Positions 12,726 to 44,278 of a DNA stretch of 64,000 bases are shown here, piece after piece. Position numbers and translations under genes: made by a program. The stretch lies in assembly GCA_945939115.1 (NCBI GenBank), contig CAMEVC010000001.1:124001-188000 (forward strand), in the 5' to 3' direction. Each line of letters begins with the position of its first letter. The first letter of the stretch is position 1. The DNA comes from an uncultured Eubacterium sp. (GTDB taxonomy: Bacteria; Bacillota; Clostridia; Lachnospirales; Lachnospiraceae). Under the pieces are notes generated by a model, which worked only from the letters and a program-made list of their open reading frames with translations, did not search any database and was not told where the DNA came from.

Positions 12726-12752
12726 TTAGCACTCCAATCTAATGAGTGCTAA
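12726..12752. promoter_or_regulatory. CIRCE operator (HrcA site) of hrcA-grpE-dnaK-dnaJ
   Basis: TTAGCACTC, nine bases, GAGTGCTAA: both arms match the CIRCE consensus perfectly. HrcA, encoded just downstream, binds this repeat and is released on heat shock, so the operon represses itself. A second copy lies before htpG at 57596-57622. Confidence 0.97.
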
Positions 12753-12774
12753 CAAGATGAAAGGAGAGGATGCC

Positions 12775-13872
12775 ATGGAGATGGAACCAAGACTGGATGA
12801 TCGTAAGATTAAGATATTAAAAGCAATTATTCAGAATTATCTTGATACTGGAGAGCCGGTCGGATCAAGAACGATTTCCAAACTGACAGATTTGCAGCTT
12901 AGTTCTGCAACTATCAGAAATGAAATGGCGGACTTGGAAGAACTTGGCTACATTGTTCAGCCTCATACTTCTGCAGGAAGAATTCCTACAGATAAGGGAT
13001 ATCGTTTATATGTAGATGATATGATGTCTAAGAAAGAGGAAGAACTATCGGAGAGAGAGCAGAGGACCATAGATAAGGAGAAAGAACTTGATTCTATGAA
13101 GGATGCTTTGTCAGAGAAGGTTGACAGAGTTGAAGAACTTCTTCAGAATGTGGCGAAGGTTCTGGCGAATAACACTAATTACGCTACTATGATAACAACA
13201 CCTAAAGTGACAGGCAATAAGCTTAGATTCGTACAGCTTTCGCAGTTGGAACCGAATAAGCTGCTGGCAGTTATCGTTATGGAGGGTAACCTTATAAGGA
13301 ATAAGGTTATTACAATCAGTGAAGATATTTCACCGGAGCATCTTCTTAAGCTTAATCTTCTTCTTAATACTACACTTACCGGATTATCCTTACAAGAGAT
13401 GCATCTTGGACTGATTTCCAAGATGGAAAGTCAGGCAGGAGAGCATATTGGTATTGTTAAGGAAGTGCTGGATGCTATTGTAGAGACTATCACTAAGGCT
13501 GACGACCTTAAGATTTATACAAGTGGTGCAACCAACATTTTTAAGTATCCTGAACTTAGTGAGTCTGGTAAGGCAAGCGAGCTTATATATGCTTTGGAGG
13601 AAAAGCAGGGACTCAGCGGATTGGTCAAGTACAATGATGATGATTCGGATGGGGCTTCTGATGATAACCACGGCATTCAAGTATATATAGGAAATGAAAC
13701 TCCGGTGGAATCCATGAAGGACTGCAGTGTGGTTACTGCCACATATGAATTGCAGGATGGTATGAAGGGAACCATTGGTATTATTGGGCCAAAGCGTATG
13801 GATTATGAGAAGGTAGTTGATACTTTGAAAGAGATGCAGACGCATTTGGATGATGTATTTAAGAAAACTTAG
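12775..13872 (+). CDS. hrcA: Heat-inducible transcription repressor HrcA
   Basis: HrcA represses class I heat-shock genes by binding CIRCE; GroEL helps it fold. The 365-residue protein has an N-terminal winged helix (ILKAIIQNYLDTGEPVGSRT, then SSATIRNEMADLEELGY and PHTSAGRIPTDKGYR) at about residues 10-80, followed by the longer dimerisation/GAF-like region. I start it at 12775 because AAAGGAGAGG lies just upstream; a start at 12742 would fall inside the CIRCE operator. First gene of the hrcA-grpE-dnaK-dnaJ operon, with grpE 11 bases after its stop. Confidence 0.95.
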   Translation: MEMEPRLDDRKIKILKAIIQNYLDTGEPVGSRTISKLTDLQLSSATIRNEMADLEELGYIVQPHTSAGRIPTDKGYRLYVDDMMSKKEEELSEREQRTIDKEKELDSMKDALSEKVDRVEELLQNVAKVLANNTNYATMITTPKVTGNKLRFVQLSQLEPNKLLAVIVMEGNLIRNKVITISEDISPEHLLKLNLLLNTTLTGLSLQEMHLGLISKMESQAGEHIGIVKEVLDAIVETITKADDLKIYTSGATNIFKYPELSESGKASELIYALEEKQGLSGLVKYNDDDSDGASDDNHGIQVYIGNETPVESMKDCSVVTATYELQDGMKGTIGIIGPKRMDYEKVVDTLKEMQTHLDDVFKKT

Positions 13873-13883
13873 GAAAGGTTGGT

Positions 13884-14531
13884 ATGGAAGTGTCAAAGGA
13901 TGTATCAAAGAAAAATAAATCAGAAGAGGCAGTTCAGGAAGATGTAATGAATCAGGACATAGAGTCTGATACAGAGGAAGCCTGTGACAGCAGCTCAGAA
14001 TGCAATACTGATGCAGCTCAGAATGCATGTGAAGCTGATGAATCAGACGAGGCTGATGATACAGAGTTAAACACTGATGACTCTAAGAAGAAAGATCCTA
14101 AAGATGCGGTTATAGAAGAACTTCAGGACAGAGTTAAGAGACAGATGGCTGAGTTTGATAATTTCAGAAAGAGAACAGAGAAAGAGAAATCTACTATGTT
14201 CGAGATGGGTGCCTCAGATATCATTAAAAAGCTTTTACCTATTGTTGATAATTTTGACAGAGGATTTAAGAGCGTGACAGATGAGGAACTTGAAACTCCA
14301 TTCGCAAAGGGAATGGATATGGTTCATAAGCAGCTTTTAAAGATGCTTGAGGATGCAGATGTTAAGCCGATTGAAGCTTTAGGCGGCGAGTTTAATCCGG
14401 ATTATCATAATGCGGTAATGCATGTTGAGGATGATTCAGTTGGAGAGAACATCGTAGTTGAAGAGTTTGAGAAAGGCTACACATACAGGGATCAGGTTAT
14501 AAGACATAGCATGGTCAAGGTTGCTAACTAG
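13884..14531 (+). CDS. grpE: Nucleotide exchange factor GrpE
   Basis: GrpE releases ADP from DnaK. The 215-residue protein has an acidic, low-complexity N-terminal region of about 70 residues rich in Asp, Glu and Ser, then the coiled-coil and head domain: QMAEFDNFRKRTEKEK, LPIVDNFDRGF, and the closing GEFNPDYHNAVMHVED with YRDQVIRHSMVKV. These are the standard GrpE signatures. It lies between hrcA and dnaK, under the same CIRCE control. The long acidic leader is common in Gram-positive GrpE. Confidence 0.95.
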   Translation: MEVSKDVSKKNKSEEAVQEDVMNQDIESDTEEACDSSSECNTDAAQNACEADESDEADDTELNTDDSKKKDPKDAVIEELQDRVKRQMAEFDNFRKRTEKEKSTMFEMGASDIIKKLLPIVDNFDRGFKSVTDEELETPFAKGMDMVHKQLLKMLEDADVKPIEALGGEFNPDYHNAVMHVEDDSVGENIVVEEFEKGYTYRDQVIRHSMVKVAN

Positions 14532-14560
14532 CGTTAAGCTGGTAAGCATATGTAGCATAA

Positions 14561-16486
<1,926 letters not shown>

Positions 16487-16513
16487 TTGCCGTCATATGT
16501 ACGGTATGAAAAG

Positions 16514-16543
16514 GACTGCATGGGGCAAAAGCTCCATGCAGTC
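16514..16543 (+). other. Stem-loop between dnaK and dnaJ
   Basis: GACTGCATGG pairs with CCATGCAGTC around a short loop, without a T tract. It is more likely a transcript-processing, partial-attenuation or stability element than a terminator, and could lower DnaJ relative to DnaK. Confidence 0.55.
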
Positions 16544-16578
16544 TCTGTTGATTAAAAAAGAAAGAGGAAGAAGCAATC

Positions 16579-17703
16579 ATGGCAGATAAGAGAGATTATT
16601 ATGAAGTCCTTGGTATATCTAAGGATGCCGATGACGCTGCTATTAAGAAAGCATATAGACAACTTGCAAAGAAATATCATCCTGATATGAATCCGGGAGA
16701 TAAGGAAGCTGAGAAGAAATTCAAGGAGGCTTCTGAAGCTTATGCGGTGTTAAGCGATGCTGAGAAGAGAAGACAGTATGACCAGTTTGGCCATGCCGCA
16801 TTTGAAGGCGGAGCAGGTGGCGCTGGAGCAGGAGGCTTCGACTTCGATTTCGGTGATATGGGAGATATCTTCGGTGATCTCTTTGGTGGTATGTTTGGCG
16901 GCGGAAGCAGGAGAAACAGCAATGGACCAAGAAGGGGCGCCGATGTAAGAGTTAATGTCAGAATTACATTTGACGAATCGGTTAAGGGAACCAAGAAACA
17001 GATTGAGGTTACTTTGAAAGATGAATGTAGTAAGTGCCATGGGACAGGAGCTAAGGCGGGGACATCTCCGGAAACCTGTAGCAAATGTCATGGTACAGGA
17101 CAGGTGACTTTCACGCAGCAGTCATTTCTGGGAATGGTCAGAAGCCAGCAGCCATGTCCTGACTGTCAGGGAACAGGTAAGATAATTAAAGAAAAATGTC
17201 CTGACTGTTACGGCACAGGATATATCAGCACTAAGAAGACTATCGAAGTTAATATTCCGGCAGGTATTGATAACGGACAGTGCGTACGTATTCAGGGGAA
17301 AGGTGAACCGGGAACCAATGGAGGACCAAGAGGAGATCTTCTTGTGGCAGTTATGATTTCACAAAGCCCTGATTTTGAAAGAGATGGATATAACATATTC
17401 TCTAATGTAGTAATAAGCTATCCGACGGCAGTACTTGGTGGAGAGATTAAGGTTAAAACTGTTGATGGAGAGGTTCTGTATGAGGTTAAGCCGGGTACAC
17501 AATCTGGAACAAGGGTAAGACTTAAAGGAAAAGGTATGCCAACTGTAAGGAATTCCCAGGTGAGAGGAGACCATTATATGACGCTTATTGTAGATATTCC
17601 TACGAAGCTTAGTCAGGAACAGAAGGATGCCCTTCTTGCATACGATAAGACTCTTACAGGTTCGGACAGACATACTAAGAAAAAGGGCTTATTTGGCAAG
17701 TAA
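16579..17703 (+). CDS. dnaJ: Chaperone protein DnaJ (Hsp40)
   Basis: DnaJ delivers clients to DnaK and stimulates its ATPase. The 374-residue protein has the complete type I layout: J-domain with the HPD motif (YHPDMNPGD, about residues 34-42), a Gly/Phe-rich region, four CxxCxGxG zinc repeats ([32 protein letters not shown]), and the C-terminal peptide-binding domains. Last gene of the heat-shock operon; a strong terminator follows at about 17754-17795. Confidence 0.97.
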
Positions 17704-25690: not shown

Positions 25691-27319
25691 ATGCTGTGTA
25701 CAAAATGTGGTCAGGAATATGAGGGCAGTCAGTGCCCCAGATGTGATGGACCTGTCATATTAGTCAACAACAGTGATTATCTCGCTAGAAGAAAAGCATA
25801 TGAACAGAAGCAGGCTTTGAAAGAGAGGTCTGCTTCTTCTGATAGAAAAGAGGAATCACAGAGTGGATTAGAACAGGTGAGAAAGATTGCTGCCAGAAAG
25901 AAAGAAGAGCTGGCAAAAGCTTCTGAGAACAGAAAAAGAGTTAAACAAAGGAACCATAAACGGTGCAAATCCTACAGGAAACTGAAAATAATATGCGCAG
26001 CCGTCATTATTTTGGTTGTGACTGCCGCTGCAGCATTTGGAATATATAAGCTTGCGACAAAGAAGAATTATGCTCTTTATGTTAGTTATAACGGCAAGAT
26101 ATATGATATTGCAGGATTAGACAGCAATTATGTCTGCGATGAGAAAAGTGCAATATTTGCTTCCGATGATAAGACATTTTATACACCGGAATGGCCTGAG
26201 GTTATTGATAAGAGCCAGTGTATAGAAAGTATGGCAAGTGACAATGGTAAATATTATGTTTCAGTGACTTATGATGAGTCGAAAAACCATAATAAATTTG
26301 CAATGTATATCTGGAATAAGAACGGATGTGCTCTTGTCTGTGAGGATGATTACAGAAAAGAGATTATGTATATATCAGATGAAGGTCTTGTGGTTTATTC
26401 TAATTCAGATGTCATTAATGATGAGGGAAGTATTGCAGGAACAATTCTGGAGATAAGCAGCGTGAGGGATGATAAGAAAAATGGTCTCGCAGCGCAGACT
26501 ACTCACATAGAATATAATCTTAACAAGGTGTATGTATACAGCGACAGGAATATGTTAGTGTGCCTTACCAATTCAGGTTCTCTGTATACATATAATTATG
26601 AAAAGATGGGAAAACCGGTAGCAGTGGCAGAGGCAGTGTCTCAGGTATGGCCTGTTTCAGACAGAATGACAGGTGTGTATACCGGAGAGGCAGATTGTTT
26701 AAACACACTTAAGGATGCGGAAACATTTTTATATTCCACCTCAGAAGGGGTGTTCTATTATAATTGTTCAAACGCTTCACCGGTGAAGATTGACAATAAG
26801 GTGGATTCTAATGCTGATTATATCTATGATAAAGAGGAAATGATAATATACAAGATTACAGGAACCAGTCTGAAATCAGCATTGATTAAGGATAAGCATG
26901 TAAGTGAATATATTGAACTGGATTCTGTAAACAGTAAGAAAAATTTTCTGTTTTTTGCAGGCGACAGACAGATTGCGTATGTTAATGGCGACAATGTGCT
27001 TAGGATGGTAACAGACAATAAAGTCAGTGATATAGCAAGTAATGTATGTGCAGGCTCACTGTCTAAGGTGTATAATAAGAGCAGAGCGGTTACATATATT
27101 TCAGATGGAAAACAGTATTACATGGAGAATCTGAAATCAGATGCCGTTGATATTCTTGCTGCGGGCTCAGCTACAAGTACTGAGGGAACACATTTTTATA
27201 AGAACAGAATATATTCTTTTGGAGAAGATAATATTCTGTACTCCAATACATTAAAGGGAAATAACAGCAGTAAGATAGGCTATGTTGAGAGATTATGGCT
27301 GGGAACAGAACTTAAGTAA
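25691..27319 (+). CDS. Zinc-ribbon membrane protein with large outer domain
   Basis: I do not recognise a characterised family. The 542-residue protein starts with a zinc ribbon (Cys3, Cys6, Cys15, Cys18), then a highly charged Lys/Glu/Arg-rich helix of about 60 residues, one transmembrane helix at about 98-119, and an outer domain of more than 400 residues. That domain shows repeated short beta strands with Tyr/Asp turns (for example KIYDIAGLDSNYV, SLYTYNYEK, VFYYNCSN, NVLRMVTDNKVSDIA), suggesting a beta-propeller. The cytoplasmic ribbon plus outer propeller suggests a sensor or scaffold. It begins 34 bases after glyQS, with AAAGGAAAG before the ATG, and rarA follows 29 bases on. Confidence 0.65.
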   Translation: MLCTKCGQEYEGSQCPRCDGPVILVNNSDYLARRKAYEQKQALKERSASSDRKEESQSGLEQVRKIAARKKEELAKASENRKRVKQRNHKRCKSYRKLKIICAAVIILVVTAAAAFGIYKLATKKNYALYVSYNGKIYDIAGLDSNYVCDEKSAIFASDDKTFYTPEWPEVIDKSQCIESMASDNGKYYVSVTYDESKNHNKFAMYIWNKNGCALVCEDDYRKEIMYISDEGLVVYSNSDVINDEGSIAGTILEISSVRDDKKNGLAAQTTHIEYNLNKVYVYSDRNMLVCLTNSGSLYTYNYEKMGKPVAVAEAVSQVWPVSDRMTGVYTGEADCLNTLKDAETFLYSTSEGVFYYNCSNASPVKIDNKVDSNADYIYDKEEMIIYKITGTSLKSALIKDKHVSEYIELDSVNSKKNFLFFAGDRQIAYVNGDNVLRMVTDNKVSDIASNVCAGSLSKVYNKSRAVTYISDGKQYYMENLKSDAVDILAAGSATSTEGTHFYKNRIYSFGEDNILYSNTLKGNNSSKIGYVERLWLGTELK

Positions 27320-28677: not shown

Positions 28678-31600
28678 ATGAGAGATTATATTAACAGACT
28701 TTCAAGAGGTAAATCAATCATCGAAGTTCCAAAGCTGATATGCAGTGAGGAGCAGGTGACTATGAATATTGTTTGCGGCAGGGTGTCACAGGGAAGCTTT
28801 GCGTTTTCTTCGTCTCTTGAAACTGTTGGAATGGTATATGCCGATGATGATAGGGTTAATATTCTTACAAAGAACTTTTCAGGATGCAAAGTTACAATAG
28901 ATTACGTGGTGGATGCTGAAGGTCTTGAGGAAAATGATGAGATTGAGGGTAATTTCACAATTGTCTGTAATGCAGGTGAGAAAATTATTCCTTTTGTATT
29001 CTTATGTGTATCGGATAACGAGAAGAAAGATGCAGCACGCAGGATTGAAGAGCCTGTAATTATTAATACCAGCGGGGACAGTCTGAGTATTTCAGTTGGT
29101 ATGGAATCTGTGAAGTCAGAAGTTGAGCTGAATAAGACAGGTACGGAGAATCTTGTAATCAATGTCTCATCTGATGTGGAATTCATACAGTTGGAAAGAG
29201 ATAGTATTTCAACAGATGATTTTACGGGAGACAGATATGAACTGGGCTTCATTATTAATCCGGACAAGCTTCATGCCGGACATAACTGGGGATATGTGTA
29301 TCTTGACACTTACAGACAGCATATTAAGGTGGCTGTATGTGTAGACAGTAAGACACAGAAAAAGGATGAGGATTTCGAGGTAAGATACGAGAATAAAAAG
29401 GCACAGATGGGGCTTACCAAGCTGTATCTGGATTTCAGAATGAAGAAGATTAAGAAGGAAAAATGGGTAGCTTCATCTCTTCAGATTATTGACAGAATAA
29501 GGGGAATAAATGGTGCGGAGCCATTCTATGACCTTGTCCAGGTGCAGTTGTTTCAGCTTTCCGGCAGGGAAGAGGAAGCACGTACAATGCTGGATATGCT
29601 TAAAAGGGATATTATAGGCAGGATTGGCGATGATGTTGAACTGTACTGTTATTTTCTCTATGTATCAACTCTCGTAATGAAGTCGGATGAATACACAGCT
29701 GAGGTTAACAGGCAGGTAAGGAAATTCTTTGAAAACGGATATGATACATACAGAGTGTTGTGGATATTGTTTTATCTGAATACGGATACAGAGAGTAATA
29801 AGAGTATAAGGCTTATAAGAATAAAGGATATGGTTAATGACGGATGCAGCAGTCCGATTATGTATCTTGAGGCGATTAATATTATCAATTCCCAGCCGGT
29901 ACTTCTGCGCGTGTTAAACCAGTTTGAGATACGAGTGATTAATTTTGGCTGCAGGTATGATATTATCAGTGAAAAGCTTGCCATGCAGATTGCAGCGGTG
30001 GCAGCCAATGAGAAGAATATTGATATTAATATGCTTATTATTCTCAGGAAACTTTATGAGAAGTTTGACAAGGATGAGATTCTGACTGCCCTTGTAACAC
30101 ATATGGTACGGCTTGGCATGACGGGTGAGAATTGTTTTCCGGTATATGAAAAAGGAATCCTTAGGGGTTTAAGAATAACAAGGCTTTACGAGTTTTACAT
30201 TGCCAGTATGAAAAAGGACATTGACACACATCTTCCTAAGATTGTGCTTATGTATTTCGCATATGACAATACATTAGGAGATAGAGAAAAGGCATTTTTA
30301 TACGCCAATATTGTCCGTGGACGGGATTCATATTACAAGGATATATATGTCAATTACGAGAAGAATATAGAAATATTTGTTTATGAACAGTTAAAGGCAG
30401 GAAATATAAGTGATGAGCTTGTTGTGTTGTACAAAGCATTACTTGGTACAGAATTATTAAATAAGGAGACAGGTGAGTTCATCAGTGGTCTTGCATATGT
30501 ATACAGAGTTAAGATTTTCAGCGATGTTGTCCGCTCTGTTGAGGTAAGACATCCACAGTTTAAGAAAAGTACAATTTACGGGCTTTCAGATAATCAGGCA
30601 TATGTATATATGTACAGTACAGATGCAGATATTACATTTGAATGTACAGATGGAATAACAAGAAAAGATGTAATAGATTACGAGCTGGAGAGAGTGTTTC
30701 CGGAGGCTGAATTTAAAAGCTTGTGGGAGCAGAGCGAGGAGTATGGCATGGATAATGCCGGGATAATGATAAGCAAAGTCATTGATATGCGAAAGAAAGG
30801 TGTTTATACACCATCTATGCTGACACTGTGTAAGTCATTAAAGAATGAATCCTCTGTAAGTGATGATTTTAAGACAGATGTGAATTCGTGGATGATAAGT
30901 TACTACAGCGGTTATTATATTCTGGACGATTTCTGGCATGAATATCCATCGGTAGACACGGATAACTTAACCAAATGTGATGCGGGAAAGCTTATTGAGA
31001 CTCTGATAAGTTTCAATATGTATTCTCAGGCTTACGAGCTTACTAAGGAGTACGGATGCTGCAGGGCATCAGCTGCAAAACTGCTTAAAATGGCTGATTA
31101 TATACTTAAGAATGTTTCTGATATGCATGATGAAGTAATAGATGCTGTAACAGCTTATATATTCAGTGAACACATTTATAATGAGCCGGTTCTTATGTAT
31201 ATGGCTGAATATTTTAATGGAACTAATGAGGAAATGTACAATGTATGGAAAGCATGTATAAGCTTTGGTGTTAATGTAAAGCATCTCTCAGACAGACTTC
31301 TTGCGCAGATGATGTATACGGGAGTACATAGCGGAAGATTTACAGAGGTTTTCACAGACTATTATAATAAGACACCTGATATGCTTATTGTAAAAGCATA
31401 TCTATCATATAACTCTCAACTCTATCTTATTAGACAGAAAAAGGCTAATGATATTGTTTTCAGGGTTATAGAAGAGGCCATTGAGGATGGCTATGGGCTG
31501 CCGGAATGCTGTTATGTGGCGTGGATGAAGAATTTGTCAAGGAATCCGATAGTACTCAATGATAATCCGTCATTAAAGAAAATGGCGCAGGAAGTGTTAG

Positions 31601-32058
31601 ATGAACTGTGCGAACAGGACAGGATATACTGTTTCTACAGGAAATTCGATGGAATACTTAAGATGCCATATAACATAATCGGTATGACGGTTATTGAATA
31701 TATTGCCAATCCTGACAGTAAGGTTACAATTACTTATACATTAGGGGATGATGAACAGAAGAATTCACAGGTCATGAAATCTAATGAATGGGGTATATTT
31801 ACAAGCAGATTTAATCTGTTCTATGGTGACAGGATGGAGTATTTCTTTACTGAGAGCGGCAGTGGAACGGATAAAGTATCAGAGCCTGCTGTTCTGGAAT
31901 ATAAAGAGGTGAGCATGGATTCTGTAGATGGAAGATTTGATGCAATCAATGACTGCCTTGCGAGCAGACAGCTGCATGACCTTACGACACTTAGGAAGCT
32001 TATGCACAGCTACAGTGTGGAAGAGTACGTTACAAGACAAATGTTTGAGATAAAGTGA
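28678..32058 (+). CDS. Giant beta-sandwich / helical-repeat protein (DUF5717-like)
   Basis: The 1126-residue product resembles a protein I recall from Lachnospiraceae as DUF5717; this is from memory. The first 220 residues look like two tandem Ig-like beta domains (a ...GCKVTIDYVVDAEGLEENDE... type strand pattern, then LGFIINPDKLHAGHNWGYVYL). From about 235 to 1040 it is long and helical, rich in Leu/Tyr/Glu, with the spacing of a repeat solenoid. The last 90 residues return to beta strands. No signal peptide, membrane helix or enzyme motif is visible. It starts six bases after rarA and is followed by an actin/Hsp70-fold gene at 10 bases, so it is probably the scaffold of a shared complex. 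Function unknown. Confidence 0.7.
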   Translation: MRDYINRLSRGKSIIEVPKLICSEEQVTMNIVCGRVSQGSFAFSSSLETVGMVYADDDRVNILTKNFSGCKVTIDYVVDAEGLEENDEIEGNFTIVCNAGEKIIPFVFLCVSDNEKKDAARRIEEPVIINTSGDSLSISVGMESVKSEVELNKTGTENLVINVSSDVEFIQLERDSISTDDFTGDRYELGFIINPDKLHAGHNWGYVYLDTYRQHIKVAVCVDSKTQKKDEDFEVRYENKKAQMGLTKLYLDFRMKKIKKEKWVASSLQIIDRIRGINGAEPFYDLVQVQLFQLSGREEEARTMLDMLKRDIIGRIGDDVELYCYFLYVSTLVMKSDEYTAEVNRQVRKFFENGYDTYRVLWILFYLNTDTESNKSIRLIRIKDMVNDGCSSPIMYLEAINIINSQPVLLRVLNQFEIRVINFGCRYDIISEKLAMQIAAVAANEKNIDINMLIILRKLYEKFDKDEILTALVTHMVRLGMTGENCFPVYEKGILRGLRITRLYEFYIASMKKDIDTHLPKIVLMYFAYDNTLGDREKAFLYANIVRGRDSYYKDIYVNYEKNIEIFVYEQLKAGNISDELVVLYKALLGTELLNKETGEFISGLAYVYRVKIFSDVVRSVEVRHPQFKKSTIYGLSDNQAYVYMYSTDADITFECTDGITRKDVIDYELERVFPEAEFKSLWEQSEEYGMDNAGIMISKVIDMRKKGVYTPSMLTLCKSLKNESSVSDDFKTDVNSWMISYYSGYYILDDFWHEYPSVDTDNLTKCDAGKLIETLISFNMYSQAYELTKEYGCCRASAAKLLKMADYILKNVSDMHDEVIDAVTAYIFSEHIYNEPVLMYMAEYFNGTNEEMYNVWKACISFGVNVKHLSDRLLAQMMYTGVHSGRFTEVFTDYYNKTPDMLIVKAYLSYNSQLYLIRQKKANDIVFRVIEEAIEDGYGLPECCYVAWMKNLSRNPIVLNDNPSLKKMAQEVLDELCEQDRIYCFYRKFDGILKMPYNIIGMTVIEYIANPDSKVTITYTLGDDEQKNSQVMKSNEWGIFTSRFNLFYGDRMEYFFTESGSGTDKVSEPAVLEYKEVSMDSVDGRFDAINDCLASRQLHDLTTLRKLMHSYSVEEYVTRQMFEIK

Positions 32059-32068
32059 GGAGACAGGT

Positions 32069-33232
32069 ATGGAACAGGGGAAGGGTCTCATAGTTGGAAT
32101 TGATATAGAAAATACAACAACCCAGGCGGGAATTTTTGATTATAAGTCCCAAACTGTACAGTCAGTTAATCTTTTGCCGGATTCAAGAGAATACATTAAT
32201 CCGGTCAGTCTTGAAAAGATTATGGAAGGGCATGAGGATGGGCAGCCGGATGTAGACAGCCTGGTAAGGATTCTTACAAGTGTTATAGCGGAATGTATGA
32301 GAGTAACCGATACATCTGAACTGCTCAGCGTATGTATCACAATGCCTGTGTTCTATATGGATGCTCTGAATGCAGTGAGAAATGCACTGGAAAGACTGGG
32401 CGTTCCTGAGGGAAGATGGCAGATTATAAGCAAGGCAGAAAGCTTTGCGTATTACGCATACAGCCAGAAAAAGGAATTGCATTCATCAGGTGTTGTATTG
32501 TTAGATTATGGTACAGAGGGGATAAAATGTGATTATATGGCTGTAAGAAGGAGCGATAATACCAATTATCTTCTTCAGGAAAGTACGAGGTACTCTTCTG
32601 ACAGCATAAAGAATGCTGTGGAAGCTGGGGGAATTGCCGCTGTGGAAGAAGAAATGTGTACATTTGCGGAAGAGTACTTTTCCAAGAGGCCGGTATCTGC
32701 TGCATATCTTACAGGAAAGGGCTTCGATGTTGAAAAACTTCCGGACAGATTCGCCAAGCTTATGGTTACAAGGAGAAAAGCGTTTGTGGGGCAGAACCTG
32801 TTCGCAAAGGGAGCTTGTTATGCAGCATTGGAGATATTAAAGCCAGAGGTGTTTAAGGATGTGGTTCTTCTGCTTGACAACAGAGTGAAATATGGAATTG
32901 AGACCGATATATCTTCCTATGGAAAAACAATGCGTTTCAGAATTGTAAGAGCAGGAACGAACTGGTATACGGCTGACAGAACCATGGAATTCATACTTGA
33001 TGATTTAAGGACAGTCACACTCAAAATCACTACACCGGATAACAGATATTATGATGAGGTCATTGATATTAGTGATATTCCTTTCAGAGAGGGGAAAACG
33101 ACAAGAATATCAATGAATGTAAGATTTACTGATGTGGACAGATGCTATGTGCGTATTAGTGACATGGGATTTGGAGAGTTTGTAAAGAGCTCGGGAAAAG
33201 TTATTCTTAAAGAACTTGAATTCAGAGATTAA
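32069..33232 (+). CDS. Actin/Hsp70-fold ATPase-like protein (DUF5716-like)
   Basis: The 387-residue protein shows the three nucleotide motifs of the actin/Hsp70/sugar-kinase fold: phosphate-1 IVGIDIENTTTQAGIFD (residues 8-24), phosphate-2 VVLLDYGTEG (142-151, Asp146), and the adenosine loop AAYLTGKGFD (211-220) with KGACYAALE (247-255). It is shorter than DnaK and has no peptide-binding domain of the DnaK type; after about residue 265 comes a beta-rich domain. I recall the family label DUF5716 for such proteins in Lachnospiraceae, unverified. The phosphate-1 loop is altered (ENTTTQ rather than GTTNS), so ATP hydrolysis is not assured. It lies between the giant protein and the TPR-like gene. 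Confidence 0.72.
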   Translation: MEQGKGLIVGIDIENTTTQAGIFDYKSQTVQSVNLLPDSREYINPVSLEKIMEGHEDGQPDVDSLVRILTSVIAECMRVTDTSELLSVCITMPVFYMDALNAVRNALERLGVPEGRWQIISKAESFAYYAYSQKKELHSSGVVLLDYGTEGIKCDYMAVRRSDNTNYLLQESTRYSSDSIKNAVEAGGIAAVEEEMCTFAEEYFSKRPVSAAYLTGKGFDVEKLPDRFAKLMVTRRKAFVGQNLFAKGACYAALEILKPEVFKDVVLLLDNRVKYGIETDISSYGKTMRFRIVRAGTNWYTADRTMEFILDDLRTVTLKITTPDNRYYDEVIDISDIPFREGKTTRISMNVRFTDVDRCYVRISDMGFGEFVKSSGKVILKELEFRD

Positions 33233-33281
33233 CACAGAATTATTACATATTGTGGATAAGTACACAGGAACGGAGAGCACA

Positions 33282-34106
33282 ATGGGAAAAATGATATTGT
33301 GCAGAGGCAGACAGACTGACAGGCCACTCATAATCGAGGGGACAGGGATAAGGCTGTATACGGCTGAAGAACTCTGCTATTACATTTATAATAATATATA
33401 TCTTATCGGACAGGAGTTTGTAAACGGCAGGCTGGTTGAGTTTCTTGCACAGACGGGAGAAAATGAGCTGTCAGAGCGTGTCAGAAACCTTATTGACAGG
33501 AAAGCCGGTCTGGCAGAAATTCTTGTCACTATTCTTAAAACTGTGGATTATTATTCTGTCACAGAGATTGAGCAGATAAGAGAAATACTGAATACGCTGG
33601 GAAAACAGAATGTATGTGAGCGGTTGAAGGCGAGAGGCGACGGCTATCTGCATAATGACTGTTACTTTTCCGCTCTAAAATGCTATGAAAAGGTGGTTAA
33701 GGACTATAAGGGCAATGGGCTTTCCGGCTCAGATTATGCTAAAGTGTATCATAATCTTGGCGTTTCTTATGCAAGAATGTTTCTGTATGGGAAGGCGGCA
33801 GAATATTTCGATGAGGCATACAGGATTGGACAGCACGAGGATTCACTCAAATGCGCTGTTGCAGCAAGAATTATGGAAAAGAAGGACAGAGCGCCGGTAA
33901 ATGTTGATGCAACAGAGGAAGAATATGTTGTTGGAAGAGAGTTAGAGACTCTCATGGATAATGCAAGATACTGCGATGAATACATAGAGCTTGAGAATAT
34001 GGACAGAATGAAGAGTGAAGGCAGGCTTAATGAGTATAATGCAGCTGTAAACGAGAAGCTTACTGAATGGAAGAAAGAATACATGAAGTACTGTAAAACA
34101 TTTTAG
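33282..34106 (+). CDS. TPR-like protein of the actin-fold ATPase operon
   Basis: The 274-residue protein has tetratricopeptide-type helices at about residues 110-190 (RGDGYLHNDCYFSALKCYEK, then KVYHNLGVSYARMFLYGKAAEYFDEA), each with the W/L-x2-G-Y-x8-A-x3-Y-E spacing. The first 90 residues carry a beta-turn start (MILCRGRQ, PLIIEGTGIRLYT) and helices; the tail is a charged coiled coil. TPRs mediate protein contacts, so this is probably an adaptor between the ATPase upstream and the membrane protein downstream. I start it at 33282 behind GGAG; the longer frame begins with TTG at 33216 inside the previous gene. No enzyme motif is seen. Confidence 0.65.
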   Translation: MGKMILCRGRQTDRPLIIEGTGIRLYTAEELCYYIYNNIYLIGQEFVNGRLVEFLAQTGENELSERVRNLIDRKAGLAEILVTILKTVDYYSVTEIEQIREILNTLGKQNVCERLKARGDGYLHNDCYFSALKCYEKVVKDYKGNGLSGSDYAKVYHNLGVSYARMFLYGKAAEYFDEAYRIGQHEDSLKCAVAARIMEKKDRAPVNVDATEEEYVVGRELETLMDNARYCDEYIELENMDRMKSEGRLNEYNAAVNEKLTEWKKEYMKYCKTF

Positions 34107-34121
34107 AAATGCGGTGATGGT

Positions 34122-35624
34122 ATGGGTATATTTGGTAAAACAAAACGGTCAAGAATGTACGATCATGATACATTTGACAAGAATATCTATGATGAAGATG
34201 AAGATAATGATGAAGATGATGAATCTGACTCTGATAACCTGGAGAAAAATTCCAGAATCATGGAACTCTATGATGCATTTGAACGTGTTGAAGAGGAGAA
34301 ACAACGGAATAGGAAGGTTGAAGGAGAACCGGATTACGAGACGAGAAAGAAGCAGCAGCTAAGCAAGATGGAGGAGGAGAAATACGACCATCTCCTGAAT
34401 AGTATGCAGGCTCAGACGCTTATCCAGGCTGTTGAGAAGTACGGCAGCGAAGAAACTAATTCACAGAGTAATATAAAACCTAAGGTTGATGAGTTCAAGA
34501 GGGATAAGAAGCTTGATAAAGTCAATACCAGGATATTCGGAGCACATGATATTGAACTGTTTGTGAAGGAACAGTGCGATATTATGGAAGAAGCTGCTGT
34601 ACATGTAGAGAATGCCAAGGCTGAATATGAAGCTGTGACAGAAGAGTTTAATGATATACAACTTATAGAAGAAGCACCGGAGGATATCAGGAAAAGTATT
34701 ACTGCGGCGGCTGAGTTAATTGATAACACAATGGTTGACAGGCGTATTCTTAAGTCATCTGAACATAAGCTGTCGAATTCAGCTTATAGGAGGATGGAAG
34801 CCGTGGAGGATGAACTTCCAAGGGGGATTAAGTTTCTTAAAGCCCAGGAGGAGTATTACGATACTGTCAAGAGAGATATGCGTATACTTGAGGGCGAGAG
34901 GATGAATCTTCGCATGGAAGCTAATTCACTTGTGAAGAAGCAGCTCAAGATAAGGAAACTTGCCAAGACAGCTATAGTTGCACTGATAGCTGTGTTTGCC
35001 ATATTTCTTATATCAATTTCCATTACAGAAAATGATTCTGATATGGCACTGTTTATAGGAGTTTCACTGTTTGCTGCAATTCTTGCAGTTGGTATGTTTG
35101 CAGTGCTTAAGATTACGGAACGCAATGTTTTAGTTACCGAGATTAAGCTTAACAAGGCTATATCCCTTCTTAATAAAGTAAAGATTAAGTACATTAATGC
35201 TGCCAATACACTGGATTATGAATACACCAAATACGGAGTAAAGAGTGCTTATGAACTGGAGAATAAATATCAGTTATATAATGAGATGAAGAAAGAGCAG
35301 ATGCAGATGCTGGATATGACATCTGCACTCAATTCTGCTGAGTTCGAACTGGAAAATCAGCTTAAAAAGCTGGGAATGTATGACCCTCACATATGGATTG
35401 GAAGAGTTAAGGCACTTATCAATCCAAAGGAGATGGTGGAGGTAAGGCATGAGCTGAACACAAGGCGATATAAGCTGAGGCAGCAGATTGAATATAATGA
35501 GAACAGAATTGCAGAGGCAAAGAATACGATAAGAAATGTTACATTATCCAATCCCGAGTACAGCGAGGATGCCATGCGTGTTATTGAATTGTATGAGAAG
35601 AGACATTCCCGGGTTGCAAAATGA
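34122..35624 (+). CDS. Two-TM coiled-coil protein of the actin-fold ATPase operon
   Basis: This 500-residue protein has an acidic, Asp-rich start (residues 20-40), long predicted coiled coils at about 45-280, two adjacent transmembrane helices at about 282-301 and 307-330 joined by a short ITENDSDM loop, and a second helical region of 170 residues. Both long ends should therefore be cytoplasmic, held at the membrane by a hairpin. I recognise no family. It follows the TPR-like gene at 15 bases and ends the unit; pheS begins 124 bases further on. A membrane anchor for the complex is the most natural reading. Confidence 0.65.
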   Translation: MGIFGKTKRSRMYDHDTFDKNIYDEDEDNDEDDESDSDNLEKNSRIMELYDAFERVEEEKQRNRKVEGEPDYETRKKQQLSKMEEEKYDHLLNSMQAQTLIQAVEKYGSEETNSQSNIKPKVDEFKRDKKLDKVNTRIFGAHDIELFVKEQCDIMEEAAVHVENAKAEYEAVTEEFNDIQLIEEAPEDIRKSITAAAELIDNTMVDRRILKSSEHKLSNSAYRRMEAVEDELPRGIKFLKAQEEYYDTVKRDMRILEGERMNLRMEANSLVKKQLKIRKLAKTAIVALIAVFAIFLISISITENDSDMALFIGVSLFAAILAVGMFAVLKITERNVLVTEIKLNKAISLLNKVKIKYINAANTLDYEYTKYGVKSAYELENKYQLYNEMKKEQMQMLDMTSALNSAEFELENQLKKLGMYDPHIWIGRVKALINPKEMVEVRHELNTRRYKLRQQIEYNENRIAEAKNTIRNVTLSNPEYSEDAMRVIELYEKRHSRVAK

Positions 35625-41823: not shown

Positions 41824-41893
41824 AAATTAAGATTAGTTGTTAAGAACATATTATCAGAATTATATTTATGGATATACGGATGAGGAGACTGGC

Positions 41894-44278
41894 ATGGTTA
41901 TACAACATAATATAAATTCCCTAAATACATATAATTGTTTGAAAACTACCAATAAAAATTTTTTGAAATCCACAGAAAAACTGTCTTCAGGTTATAGAAT
42001 CAACAGAGCTGCTGATGATGCTGCGGGACTTACCATTTCAGAAAAAATGAGATGGCAGATAAGAGGGCTTAATAGGGCTGCCAGAAATATTACAGATGGT
42101 ATTTCTTTCTGTAATGTAGCTGAGGGAGCACTTTCTGAGGTTAATTCTATGTTGGGCAGAATGAAAGAATTATCTGTACAGGCAGCAAATGACACTAATA
42201 CAGATAGTGACAGAGCTGCACTTGATGCTGAGGTACAGCAGCTTACAGATGAATTAGATAATATATTTAAGACTACAAGTTTTAATACAAAGAAAGTATG
42301 GTGTGCTACATATATTCCGGCTGTAACAGGTGAAGCAACAGATTTTTCTTTTTATAATACAACGGATTCAATTGGAACATATGTGGGTGGTATCCAGTAT
42401 ATGAATCATAGATATTCATGGGAAGACCTTGGGATAGATTATGATAGAGCAACGCAAACATTTACCGATACAGTTTCAAAAAGAATAGATAGTCGTATAT
42501 TAAAGGATGATTCGGCAACTTTAATTGACGATAAGGGACAGGGTGCTTTTTTTGATATAAAAACTGTTAAGGGAGAAGCACTTAATACTGCACAGAAAAC
42601 ATATAGCTGGAAAGCAGATAATACTGGAATTATTATTGATGGTGTAAGAACTGATGGTACTAATGCTGATGAGGGAAATACTTCATGGGCAGCTATGGGA
42701 ATAACTCCGGGAGCAGATGTGTCAGCCGGAACATATACATTTAAGTATTACGGTTTGGAGATATCATTTGATGTTCCAGATGGAGGAGCGGACTGGACAA
42801 CATTTATTGATGGTATAAATAATCAATTTGTTCATATTGATTGGCATAGTGTTAATGTAGGAGCAACTTCTAATCAGAGCGCAGACATAACATCGTTTGA
42901 TAGCACTAAAGTCACTGTTACAGCTGCCAATAAAGATAAAATATCTACATCAGGGTATAAAGTGGTCGCTAACAAGAATGACGGGCTCAGTGTAAAGTAT
43001 GATGATGGTGTATTATCGTCTACAAGTTGGAACAATATACCGGATATATCAGGAAATAACAGCAAAGTTAATTCATGGGGAGACGGAGCTGGAGGTTCTG
43101 CATATGTCACGGTTAACGATAAATCAGTGTATAAATATGATGATAGTACCAAAGGTGGGTTTATAAGTTATGAGTATAAGCTTGATGAAGACGGAAGTCC
43201 TGAAAGTATAATAAATGATATTGGAAATACAACAATTTCTGCTGATACACATTCACCGACAGCAATAACTGTTGGTAATAATAGTAATATAAATAGCAAA
43301 GTAACAGTAACTGGAACATCTGATATAGGGTTCGATACCCAGAGAGATGATTTTAGCAGGGCTTTTGCACAGAATTACGAGATAATCAGCAATTCAGGAA
43401 TTGTATCTGAGAAAGAAACTGCACCGGGAATTATTAACCATATAATTAGCTTTGGAACAGATGAGACTACTTTTACATGTGATTACAATATTAATGCTCA
43501 TCTGGCAGAACAACTTATAAATGCCAGAGAAAATTTACTGTCAAGATATAATTCAAATATTCCTCCTGATGTTCCTCCTGATAATGAATCACTTAAGTTA
43601 GGAACGGTGTCGTATACATTTACCAATAGAAGTAATACAGCAGGTGAATTTAACAAGATTAAATTAGTATATGATCTCAGCAGGCTTACATATGGTGACG
43701 TTAAGAATTTGAGTAAGTATAGCAATATTAATAATAATTTCTGGGATTATGCGGATAGTATTATATATGCTAATAAGTCAGTGACACTTAAAGGCAATGG
43801 GGAGACATACCAGAATCTTAGTTGTAATGAAGTTAGTGTTACAGAACAGTCAACAAAGAATTCAGCAGGAGTATTTGGATTTAAACAGGAAGTCCTTATT
43901 CAGGCTGGAGCGCTTAATGAACAGACAATAGGTATATCTTATGATTTTCTCCGAACAGGAAATATAGGTCTGGGGGGAATTAGTCTGCTTACATATTCTG
44001 ATTCGGAATCGGCAATATCCCAGATTGATAAAGCCATTGAAAAAGTGTCAGAACAGAGGGCAGTATTTGGAGCATATACTAACAGGCTTGAGCGGGCTTA
44101 TAATGTCAATATGAATAATAGCGAGAATACGCAGGCGGCAGAATCAAGAATAAGAGATACTGATTTTTCTGAAGAATTAATTGATTATTCTAAGCAGAAT
44201 ATATTATCACAGGTTGGACAGAGCATGCTGGCACAGGCTAATCAGCAGGATAAACAAGTGTTAAGTCTTATTGAATGA
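41894..44278 (+). CDS. Flagellin, unusually long
   Basis: Flagellin is the filament subunit. The N-terminal D0/D1 region is classical (MVIQHNINSLNTYN, SSGYRINRAADDAAGL, SVQAANDTNTDSDRAALDAEVQQL), and the C-terminal 90 residues are too (ISQIDKAIEKVSEQRAVFGAYTNRLE to LAQANQQDKQVLSLIE). Between them lies a variable central part of about 560 residues rich in Asn, Asp, Ser, Thr and Gly, which should form outer D2/D3 domains. At 794 residues it is about twice the size of common flagellins. GGAGAC precedes the ATG at 41894. It is controlled by its own SigD promoter. No other flagellar gene is in the window, so it is a free-standing filament gene; others may exist elsewhere. Confidence 0.92.
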   Translation: MVIQHNINSLNTYNCLKTTNKNFLKSTEKLSSGYRINRAADDAAGLTISEKMRWQIRGLNRAARNITDGISFCNVAEGALSEVNSMLGRMKELSVQAANDTNTDSDRAALDAEVQQLTDELDNIFKTTSFNTKKVWCATYIPAVTGEATDFSFYNTTDSIGTYVGGIQYMNHRYSWEDLGIDYDRATQTFTDTVSKRIDSRILKDDSATLIDDKGQGAFFDIKTVKGEALNTAQKTYSWKADNTGIIIDGVRTDGTNADEGNTSWAAMGITPGADVSAGTYTFKYYGLEISFDVPDGGADWTTFIDGINNQFVHIDWHSVNVGATSNQSADITSFDSTKVTVTAANKDKISTSGYKVVANKNDGLSVKYDDGVLSSTSWNNIPDISGNNSKVNSWGDGAGGSAYVTVNDKSVYKYDDSTKGGFISYEYKLDEDGSPESIINDIGNTTISADTHSPTAITVGNNSNINSKVTVTGTSDIGFDTQRDDFSRAFAQNYEIISNSGIVSEKETAPGIINHIISFGTDETTFTCDYNINAHLAEQLINARENLLSRYNSNIPPDVPPDNESLKLGTVSYTFTNRSNTAGEFNKIKLVYDLSRLTYGDVKNLSKYSNINNNFWDYADSIIYANKSVTLKGNGETYQNLSCNEVSVTEQSTKNSAGVFGFKQEVLIQAGALNEQTIGISYDFLRTGNIGLGGISLLTYSDSESAISQIDKAIEKVSEQRAVFGAYTNRLERAYNVNMNNSENTQAAESRIRDTDFSEELIDYSKQNILSQVGQSMLAQANQQDKQVLSLIE

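Follow-up and report, generated by a model that had tools for sequence, protein, structure and literature searches.

A widespread gene module of Lachnospiraceae with a putative degenerate Hsp70 of family DUF5716

The four-gene locus

The window analysed here is a whole stretch of 64,000 nucleotides from an uncultured Eubacterium sp. of the family Lachnospiraceae (contig CAMEVC010000001.1, positions 124,001 to 188,000). Four genes lie one after the other on its + strand between positions 28678 and 35624, separated by gaps of 10, 49 and 15 bases: P1 (28678-32058), coding for a DUF5717 protein of 1126 amino acids (aa); P2 (32069-33232), coding for a DUF5716 protein of 387 aa; P3 (33282-34106), coding for a TPR protein of 274 aa; and P4 (34122-35624), coding for a 500-aa coiled-coil-like protein. 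A first-pass annotation, made from the letters alone, had described four consecutive same-strand genes with these gaps, which the open reading frames (ORFs) of the interval confirm, and had proposed that a scaffold, an ATPase of the actin/Hsp70 fold, a TPR-like protein and a membrane protein together form a membrane-linked, nucleotide-driven assembly, perhaps cytoskeletal. P2 is best read as a degenerate pseudo-Hsp70 lacking subdomain IIB and the lid, and the first three genes probably form a reduced, Hsp70-derived module.

P1 matches DUF5717_N (PF18984) and DUF5717 (PF18983) with E values of 3.8e-214 and 2.4e-76, and its bit scores of 713.6 and 257.3 against a Pfam cut-off of 25 make it a DUF5717 member. 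Its closest named matches, among the best 80 of at least 537 matching stretches, are in an Eubacteriales metagenome-assembled genome (64% identity) and in Eubacterium sp. AF22-9 (62%). The AlphaFold2 model (predicted local distance difference test, pLDDT, 85.3; predicted template-modelling score, pTM, 0.56) begins with two strand-rich domains at residues 20-111 and 128-224, continues as a mostly helical solenoid (231 to about 990) into which a strand-rich segment (608-672) is inserted, and ends with a strand-rich domain (1004-1074) followed by helices, which bears out the Ig-like N-terminus and long helical regions first described for this protein. By its predicted fold, the N-terminal pair is a tandem of Ig-like domains of ASH/SPD-2-like type. 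The Foldseek matches of P1 are partial (template-modelling (TM) scores normalised to the query of 0.06-0.12): the Ig-type ones include ciliary central-apparatus proteins, CEP192 SPD-2 and titin Ig pairs, and the solenoid ones helical solenoids such as SKI3. Judged on the model, these are resemblances at the level of domains and not family membership.

The TPR-like character given to P3 in the first-pass annotation is supported by matches to TPR models (TPR_2, 1e-07), and its place as a partner by fusions with P2 in five loci, presented below. The coordinates above assume the ATG at 33282, which yields the 49-base gap; an alternative TTG start at 33216 would give a protein of 296 aa overlapping P2. 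A weak match relates P3 to one PHROG without assigned function, the only match of P1-P4 in the phage and defence libraries searched. P4 has no family match above cut-off and is conserved in relatives (31-row alignment). As had been noticed from the sequence, P4 has a predicted two-helix membrane hairpin, which hydropathy places at about residues 277-334, with windows starting at 277-287 and 305-316; P4 is the sole one of the four proteins with such a two-segment hydrophobic hairpin.

Relationship of P2 to Hsp70

P2 matches DUF5716_C (PF18980) with an E value of 1.3e-81 and 274.3 bits against a cut-off of 34.7, and DUF5716 is matched by all 68 aligned P2 proteins. Searched with Foldseek against the PDB, its AlphaFold2 model (pLDDT 93.2, pTM 0.90) gave 372 matches at E<=0.001; the best 50 of these 372 are all Hsp70 entries, comprising DnaK, BiP, Hsc70, mortalin, Sse1/Hsp110 and Ssz1, with a lid-deleted DnaK at the top (E 1.2e-15). 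A P2 profile compared with PDB chain sequences found six matches at E<=1, all of them DnaK (E 0.006-0.07) and collinear with P2 over the N-terminal part and the beta part of the substrate-binding domain (SBD-beta). The predicted structure is of Hsp70 type, with the core of a nucleotide-binding domain (NBD) and a region aligned to SBD-beta.

A longer relative of P2 is the DUF5716 protein of a larger operon found in sister families, designated P2L. The alignment of the two extends from end to end over 423 columns (E 2.1e-54), and P2L members match both DUF5716_C (18 of 18) and Pfam HSP70 (14 of 18). The actin/Hsp70 core that the first-pass annotation saw in P2 can thus be specified as Hsp70 by profile, by the P2L alignment and by the best 50 fold matches, and P2 appears to be descended from the DUF5716 protein of the larger operon.

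An expanded operon in six sister families

The larger operon was characterised in 19 loci (L044-L062) from six other families of the order, selected from the top DUF5716 matches in those families. In the usual order it starts with a split DUF5717, consisting of an Ig part of about 400 aa and a solenoid part of about 900 aa, followed by H560, an Hsp70 named for its approximate length in aa, a protein of some 630 aa whose C-terminal domain is GrpE, P2L (about 515 aa), a second Hsp70 of about 546 aa (H546), an Hsp70-VWA fusion of about 690 aa (HVWA) and, last, the TPR protein P3L. Contig ends truncate several loci, in which parts are therefore missing from view: P2L was seen in all 19, the GrpE-domain protein in 17, H546 in 16, and H560 and HVWA in 15 each. 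Pfam GrpE was found in 14 of the 14 members tested among the 17, and NCBIfam GrpE also in the short form of L044. The operon Hsp70s are read as lidless, because the Hsp70 matches of L053 end at profile positions 477-496 of 599. A profile of P3 (104 rows) matches one of P3L (10 rows) with E 8e-30 over 178 columns, corresponding to a common N-terminal domain. Since the sister families carry this expanded, ancestor-like operon, the Lachnospiraceae module looks like a reduced Hsp70 machine.

Three expanded loci of one genus (L048-L050) have extra genes between the Hsp70 genes, in partly shared clusters (c20, c21, c23, c24, c47, c48). By eye these resemble genes for hydrolases with a metallo-beta-lactamase fold, for acetyltransferases, for a DNA methyltransferase and for other proteins, and they look unrelated. 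A 568-aa Hsp70, of H560 length, was also noticed in a genome of the order listed without DUF5716 match (G006, contig C132:11381-13006).

Decay of the ATP site and loss of subdomain IIB

Ten columns of the ATP site (D8, G10, T11, K70, E171, D194, G196, G197, T199 and G342) were compared, with the canonical DnaK of the window (14600-16486, + strand, outside the four-gene operon; HSP70 7.2e-247) as reference; the columns were located by motif, and the residue numbers are those of E. coli DnaK. For P2, ORFs above 600 aa (fusions) or below 350 aa were excluded, leaving 113 rows (109 distinct aligned); for the Hsp70s, operon ORFs below 480 aa were excluded, leaving 13 H560, 15 H546 and 14 HVWA rows, beside 19 of P2L. 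All ten columns are intact in 41 of the 42 operon Hsp70s (H560 13/13, H546 15/15, HVWA 13/14), the lone one falling short being a split HVWA ORF of L044. P2L retains 2-7 of the ten columns in 19 of 19 rows and P2 only 0-4 in 113 of 113.

The P2 of the window keeps three columns, D8, D194 and G196. Across the 113 rows, T11, K70 and E171 are kept in none (the E171 column depends on the alignment, and many rows have a Glu a few residues further on), G342 in one, G196 in 6, T199 in 10 and G197 in 37; at the G342 column 75 rows have Asp or Glu. The phosphate-1, phosphate-2 and adenosine motifs attributed to P2 by the first-pass annotation are therefore recognisable as segments by their position, and Asp146, named there as the phosphate-2 residue, does sit in the column of DnaK Asp194, but most of the functional residues are gone. 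P2 is probably not an ATPase.

The span between T199 and G341 measures 138 residues in DnaK and has the same median in P2L, which still has subdomain IIB, as against a median of 68 (54-82) in P2; about 70 residues are gone at the site of IIB. In DnaK, this subdomain is the docking site of GrpE. The helical lid (SBD-alpha) likewise has no counterpart in P2, which stops where its SBD-beta alignment to DnaK stops and whose modelled C-terminus consists of strands.

The P2L of L044 keeps just D8 and T11 of the ten columns, yet has a full-length span and lies beside intact Hsp70s and a GrpE-domain gene. Because this intermediate combines a decayed ATP site with a complete span and partners, it suggests, for a single lineage, that the ATP site decayed first and that IIB and the partners were lost later. 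Living relatives would then represent the stages: in P2L the ATP site is partly lost, in L044 it is almost entirely lost but IIB is still there, and finally IIB and the partners are absent.

Gene order and distribution

Gene order, which the first-pass annotation proposed to check across Lachnospiraceae, is conserved: in the 42 short-form loci taken from whole genomes, namely the window and L063-L103, P2 always adjoins P1 on one strand. P3 comes next in 37 of the 42, is fused to P2 in four and overlaps it in one (L085). P3-P2 gene fusions, in which both profiles match, occur in five loci overall (L081, L088, L089, L103 and L160). In another set of 80 named loci, the gene picker placed P2 after P1 in 75. 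Ten of the 80 departed at first from the plain order and were re-examined with profiles in all six frames: in L114, L122, L135, L137 and L168 P3 does follow P2, where an antisense ORF or an overlap had masked it; the P2 of L172 lies in two overlapping frames and that of L164 is partial, at the contig end, both thus adding to the 75; and three loci stop short of P2, namely L121, L177 and L111, the last with its P1 in three frames. P3 follows P2 in 73 named loci, once as a fusion, and four end before P3, L107, L109 and L131 among them.

P4 is next in 21 of the 42 whole-genome loci. A genome-wide search of 24 genomes detected it in the three positive controls and not in the other 21, 20 of which carry P1-P2-P3 without P4 adjoining; P1-P2-P3 is therefore regarded as the core and P4 as an optional, accessory component. 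A P4 relative also closes the expanded operon in two loci (L044 and L056). The membrane link of the first-pass annotation accordingly holds where P4 is present and does not extend to the module in those 20 genomes.

Of 392 genomes of the order, 225 have a DUF5716 match; by the listed rows, 130 of these belong to the family of the window, its own genome included, and 95 to other families, some of them beyond the six with the expanded operon described above. The 130 stand against 131 sampled genomes of the family, a figure read from those no-match rows that were listed, in order of kinship; the only family genome among them is G364, in which the P1 gene reaches the contig end, so that the absence of P2 may be an assembly gap. 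Wider sampling with DUF5716, DUF5717 and a profile of the solenoid of the expanded operon gave 17 of 391 genomes of the class (16 in the family and one weak match below cut-off), 6 of 398 of the phylum (five in the family, one weak) and, for the solenoid profile, 15 of 381, every one a member of the family. None of the three profiles gave anything firm outside the order, where weak matches below cut-off were seen in G695 and G789. A core gene set would be distributed in this way: DUF5716 occurs in 130 of 131 family genomes with one match each and is nearly absent from the sampled class and phylum outside the order. In the genome of the window, DUF5716 and DUF5717_N are each a single gene.

One of the whole-genome loci, L063, belongs to another family (f8) and has the short Lachnospiraceae form of the module. 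The Lachnospiraceae type was seen there as well as in L151 (labelled Muribaculaceae) and L130 (labelled Bacteroides), either by misbinning or contamination or by transfer. Two genomes, G172 and G249, are unusually large among the listed genomes of the order (7.7 and 8.8 Mb), and G172 has 19 PF00012 match stretches.

Surroundings of the locus

In the window, P1-P4 are flanked by GlyS, ZnR and RarA upstream and by PheS and PheT downstream. Such flanks are shared by L081, L103 and the three loci of the same genus, L064-L066, and in part by L078 (GlyS not seen; the locus ends); in L095 and L096 the gene immediately upstream is RarA, without the others. The genes flanking P1-P2-P3 differ between genera, with recurrent clusters including ValS (11 loci) and PurB (14 loci), each identified from one representative.

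A canonical heat-shock operon (hrcA, grpE, dnaK, dnaJ) lies at 12742-17703, about 11 kb upstream of the locus; the genes neighbouring dnaK have HrcA, GrpE and DnaJ family matches. A PF00012 search of the whole genome of the window found two DnaK-type proteins, one in an open frame of 641 aa and the other in one of 587 aa, as well as two matches in frames of 343 aa that are MreB-like by length; no Hsp70-VWA protein of about 700 aa was found by this search. The second DnaK-type gene (587-aa frame) is located away from the canonical operon (G000, contig C5:30950-32677).

Two other genes of the window were noticed. Positions 25691-27319 code for a 542-aa protein with a CxxC start at the N-terminus and a single hydrophobic segment at around residue 100, which weakly matches a WD-repeat-like model; relatives are located near rarA in L064-L066, L078, L081 and L103. 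Positions 41837-44278 code for a flagellin of 813 aa, in which a long stretch separates the N-terminal flagellin domain from the C-terminal one.

Proposed function and alternatives

We consider it fairly probable that P1-P2-P3 is a reduced Hsp70-derived module forming an ATP-independent platform for the holding or assembly of protein clients. P2 would dock on the TPR protein P3, and the solenoid of P1, with Ig-like domains at its tip, would carry them both, making up a constitutive, cytosolic platform; the lidless, SBD-beta-aligned region of P2, the P2-P3 fusions and the solenoid with its Ig tips would fit such an arrangement. In lineages that carry it, P4 may tether the platform to the membrane. 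An ATP-driven step, if needed, could be supplied by the ordinary DnaK-DnaJ-GrpE system, a partnership that we infer. More tentatively, at somewhat under even chances, we suggest that this platform is a family-wide core, probably housekeeping and important for growth, which has shed its motor and has kept only the pseudo-Hsp70, the giant Ig/solenoid scaffold and the TPR adaptor of an ancestral operon with three lidless Hsp70s, a GrpE-domain exchange factor and a VWA part.

Several observations weigh against this interpretation. The P2-normalised TM-scores of the fold matches are moderate (0.37-0.55). P2 proteins give no direct match to Pfam HSP70 (PF00012; 0 of 68 at E<=0.01) and the comparison with H560 is weak (hhalign probability 24%, E 8.5e-4), because of which the tie to Hsp70 is made by way of the fold and of P2L. 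A quick tree with 87 rows, in which P2 is represented by 19 rows (that of the window plus 18 random draws from the 113), unites these in one group (SH-like approximate likelihood ratio test, SH-aLRT, 99) that joins the P2L of L044 (99), and the tree serves as support only, since the program warns of long-branch joins. The losses of IIB and of the GrpE protein are not independent evidence, being in effect one evolutionary event. Finally, the ATP site is not entirely erased: the D8 column is Asp in 99 of the 113 P2 rows, the D194 column is acidic in 101 (Asp in 52, Glu in 49), G341 is kept in 113 and G10 in 53, so that P2 may still bind some metal or nucleotide.

The same residual D8, D194 and G341 columns could be expected of a slow or non-hydrolysing nucleotide switch like Ssz1 or Hsp110, regulating a partner Hsp70 such as DnaK, whose canonical operon is in the same window, and Ssz1 and Sse1 structures are among the best 50 fold matches. 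We nevertheless regard such a switch as unlikely: T11, K70 and E171 have gone from every row, T199 and G342 from nearly all, with an acidic residue at G342 in most, P2 has no subdomain IIB, and none of P1-P4 has a J-domain match.

Less probable still is that a degenerate Hsp70 serves here as an adaptor that binds RNA or the ribosome. Passages of PMC11090510 propose degenerate Hsp70 NBD/SBD units of CoCoNuT systems as RNA binders, and according to a portion of PMC8476630 Zuo1 tethers Ssz1 at the ribosome; matches to nucleases, OB-folds, McrB GTPases or J-domains are absent from P1-P4.

A defence or conflict system akin to the Hsp70-GrpE-FNIII/TPR neighbourhoods of GAP1-N2 GTPase systems seems very unlikely. 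The expanded operon does join Hsp70, GrpE, VWA, TPR and Ig-like parts, like the themes in the relevant sections of PMC7159879, and three L053 operon Hsp70s weakly match the PADLOC candidate PDC-M61B (E 3.5e-07 to 6.9e-05), Csa3 being the other weak PADLOC match among the L053 proteins; against this stand the core-like distribution of DUF5716, the lack of PADLOC matches for P1-P4 and the absence of a GTPase from the eight operon proteins of L053. Equally doubtful is the actin-like, nucleotide-driven cytoskeletal or membrane assembly motor of the first-pass annotation, for which a common superfamily fold and the P4 hairpin could speak: the three remaining ATP-site columns of the window P2 and the loss of IIB argue against both a nucleotide-driven and a cytoskeletal role, P2 differs from the MreB/ParM type by its degenerate motifs and by best fold matches that are Hsp70 and not actin, its C-terminus aligns to the Hsp70 substrate-binding domain, and the search of 24 genomes detected no P4 in 21.

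The platform thus proposed concerns a protein family present in nearly every sampled genome of a major gut bacterial family and without a function in Pfam. Taking DUF5716 as a degenerate Hsp70 of a multi-Hsp70 operon would turn two orphan families into a testable chaperone problem. The lineage also offers a natural series in which an Hsp70 loses its ATP site, its exchange-factor subdomain and its partners while the gene neighbourhood persists, and which bears on what Hsp70 folds do without ATP.

Comparison with known systems

PF18980, PF18983 and PF18984 are Pfam families of unknown function, and P1 and P2 lie far above their cut-offs. A literature search by DUF name and Pfam accession found no paper describing DUF5716 or DUF5717, and one unrelated passing mention of DUF5716; this agrees with the first-pass annotation, which knew of no characterised function.

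Like Hsp70/DnaK (PF00012), P2 has an NBD core and a region aligned to SBD-beta; it differs in having lost subdomain IIB, the lid and the majority of residues in the ATP site. Other atypical Hsp70s are Hsp110/Sse1 and, in the ribosome-associated complex of yeast, Ssz1. In the passages of PMC8476630 that deal with them, Ssz1 is described as having a J-domain partner and no efficient ATP-regulated substrate cycle, and Sse1 as an exchange factor. P2 lacks IIB, and no DnaJ-domain match was found in its neighbours P1, P3 and P4, the only one among the scanned proteins being in the canonical operon.

HSP70-GrpE-FNIII/TPR neighbourhoods are described for GAP1-N2 GTPase systems in the relevant part of PMC7159879, and the expanded operon of the sister families likewise combines Hsp70, GrpE and an Ig/FNIII-TPR protein. 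The Lachnospiraceae operon differs from what is given there by having neither an active Hsp70 nor GrpE and by a distribution that is core and not patchy; no GTPase was found in P1-P4 or, L053 standing alone for the expanded loci, in its operon. CnuD of Type III CoCoNuT, in the corresponding sections of PMC11090510, also has a degenerate Hsp70 NBD/SBD; it belongs to McrBC-type restriction systems, for which P1-P4 and six scanned flanking genes gave no matches. As far as the parts of the two papers concerned extend, their gene sets differ from both P1-P2-P3 and the expanded set. The DUF families are already in Pfam, and no description of the module was found in the literature searched; P1-P2-P3 is a variant of the Hsp70-derived systems.

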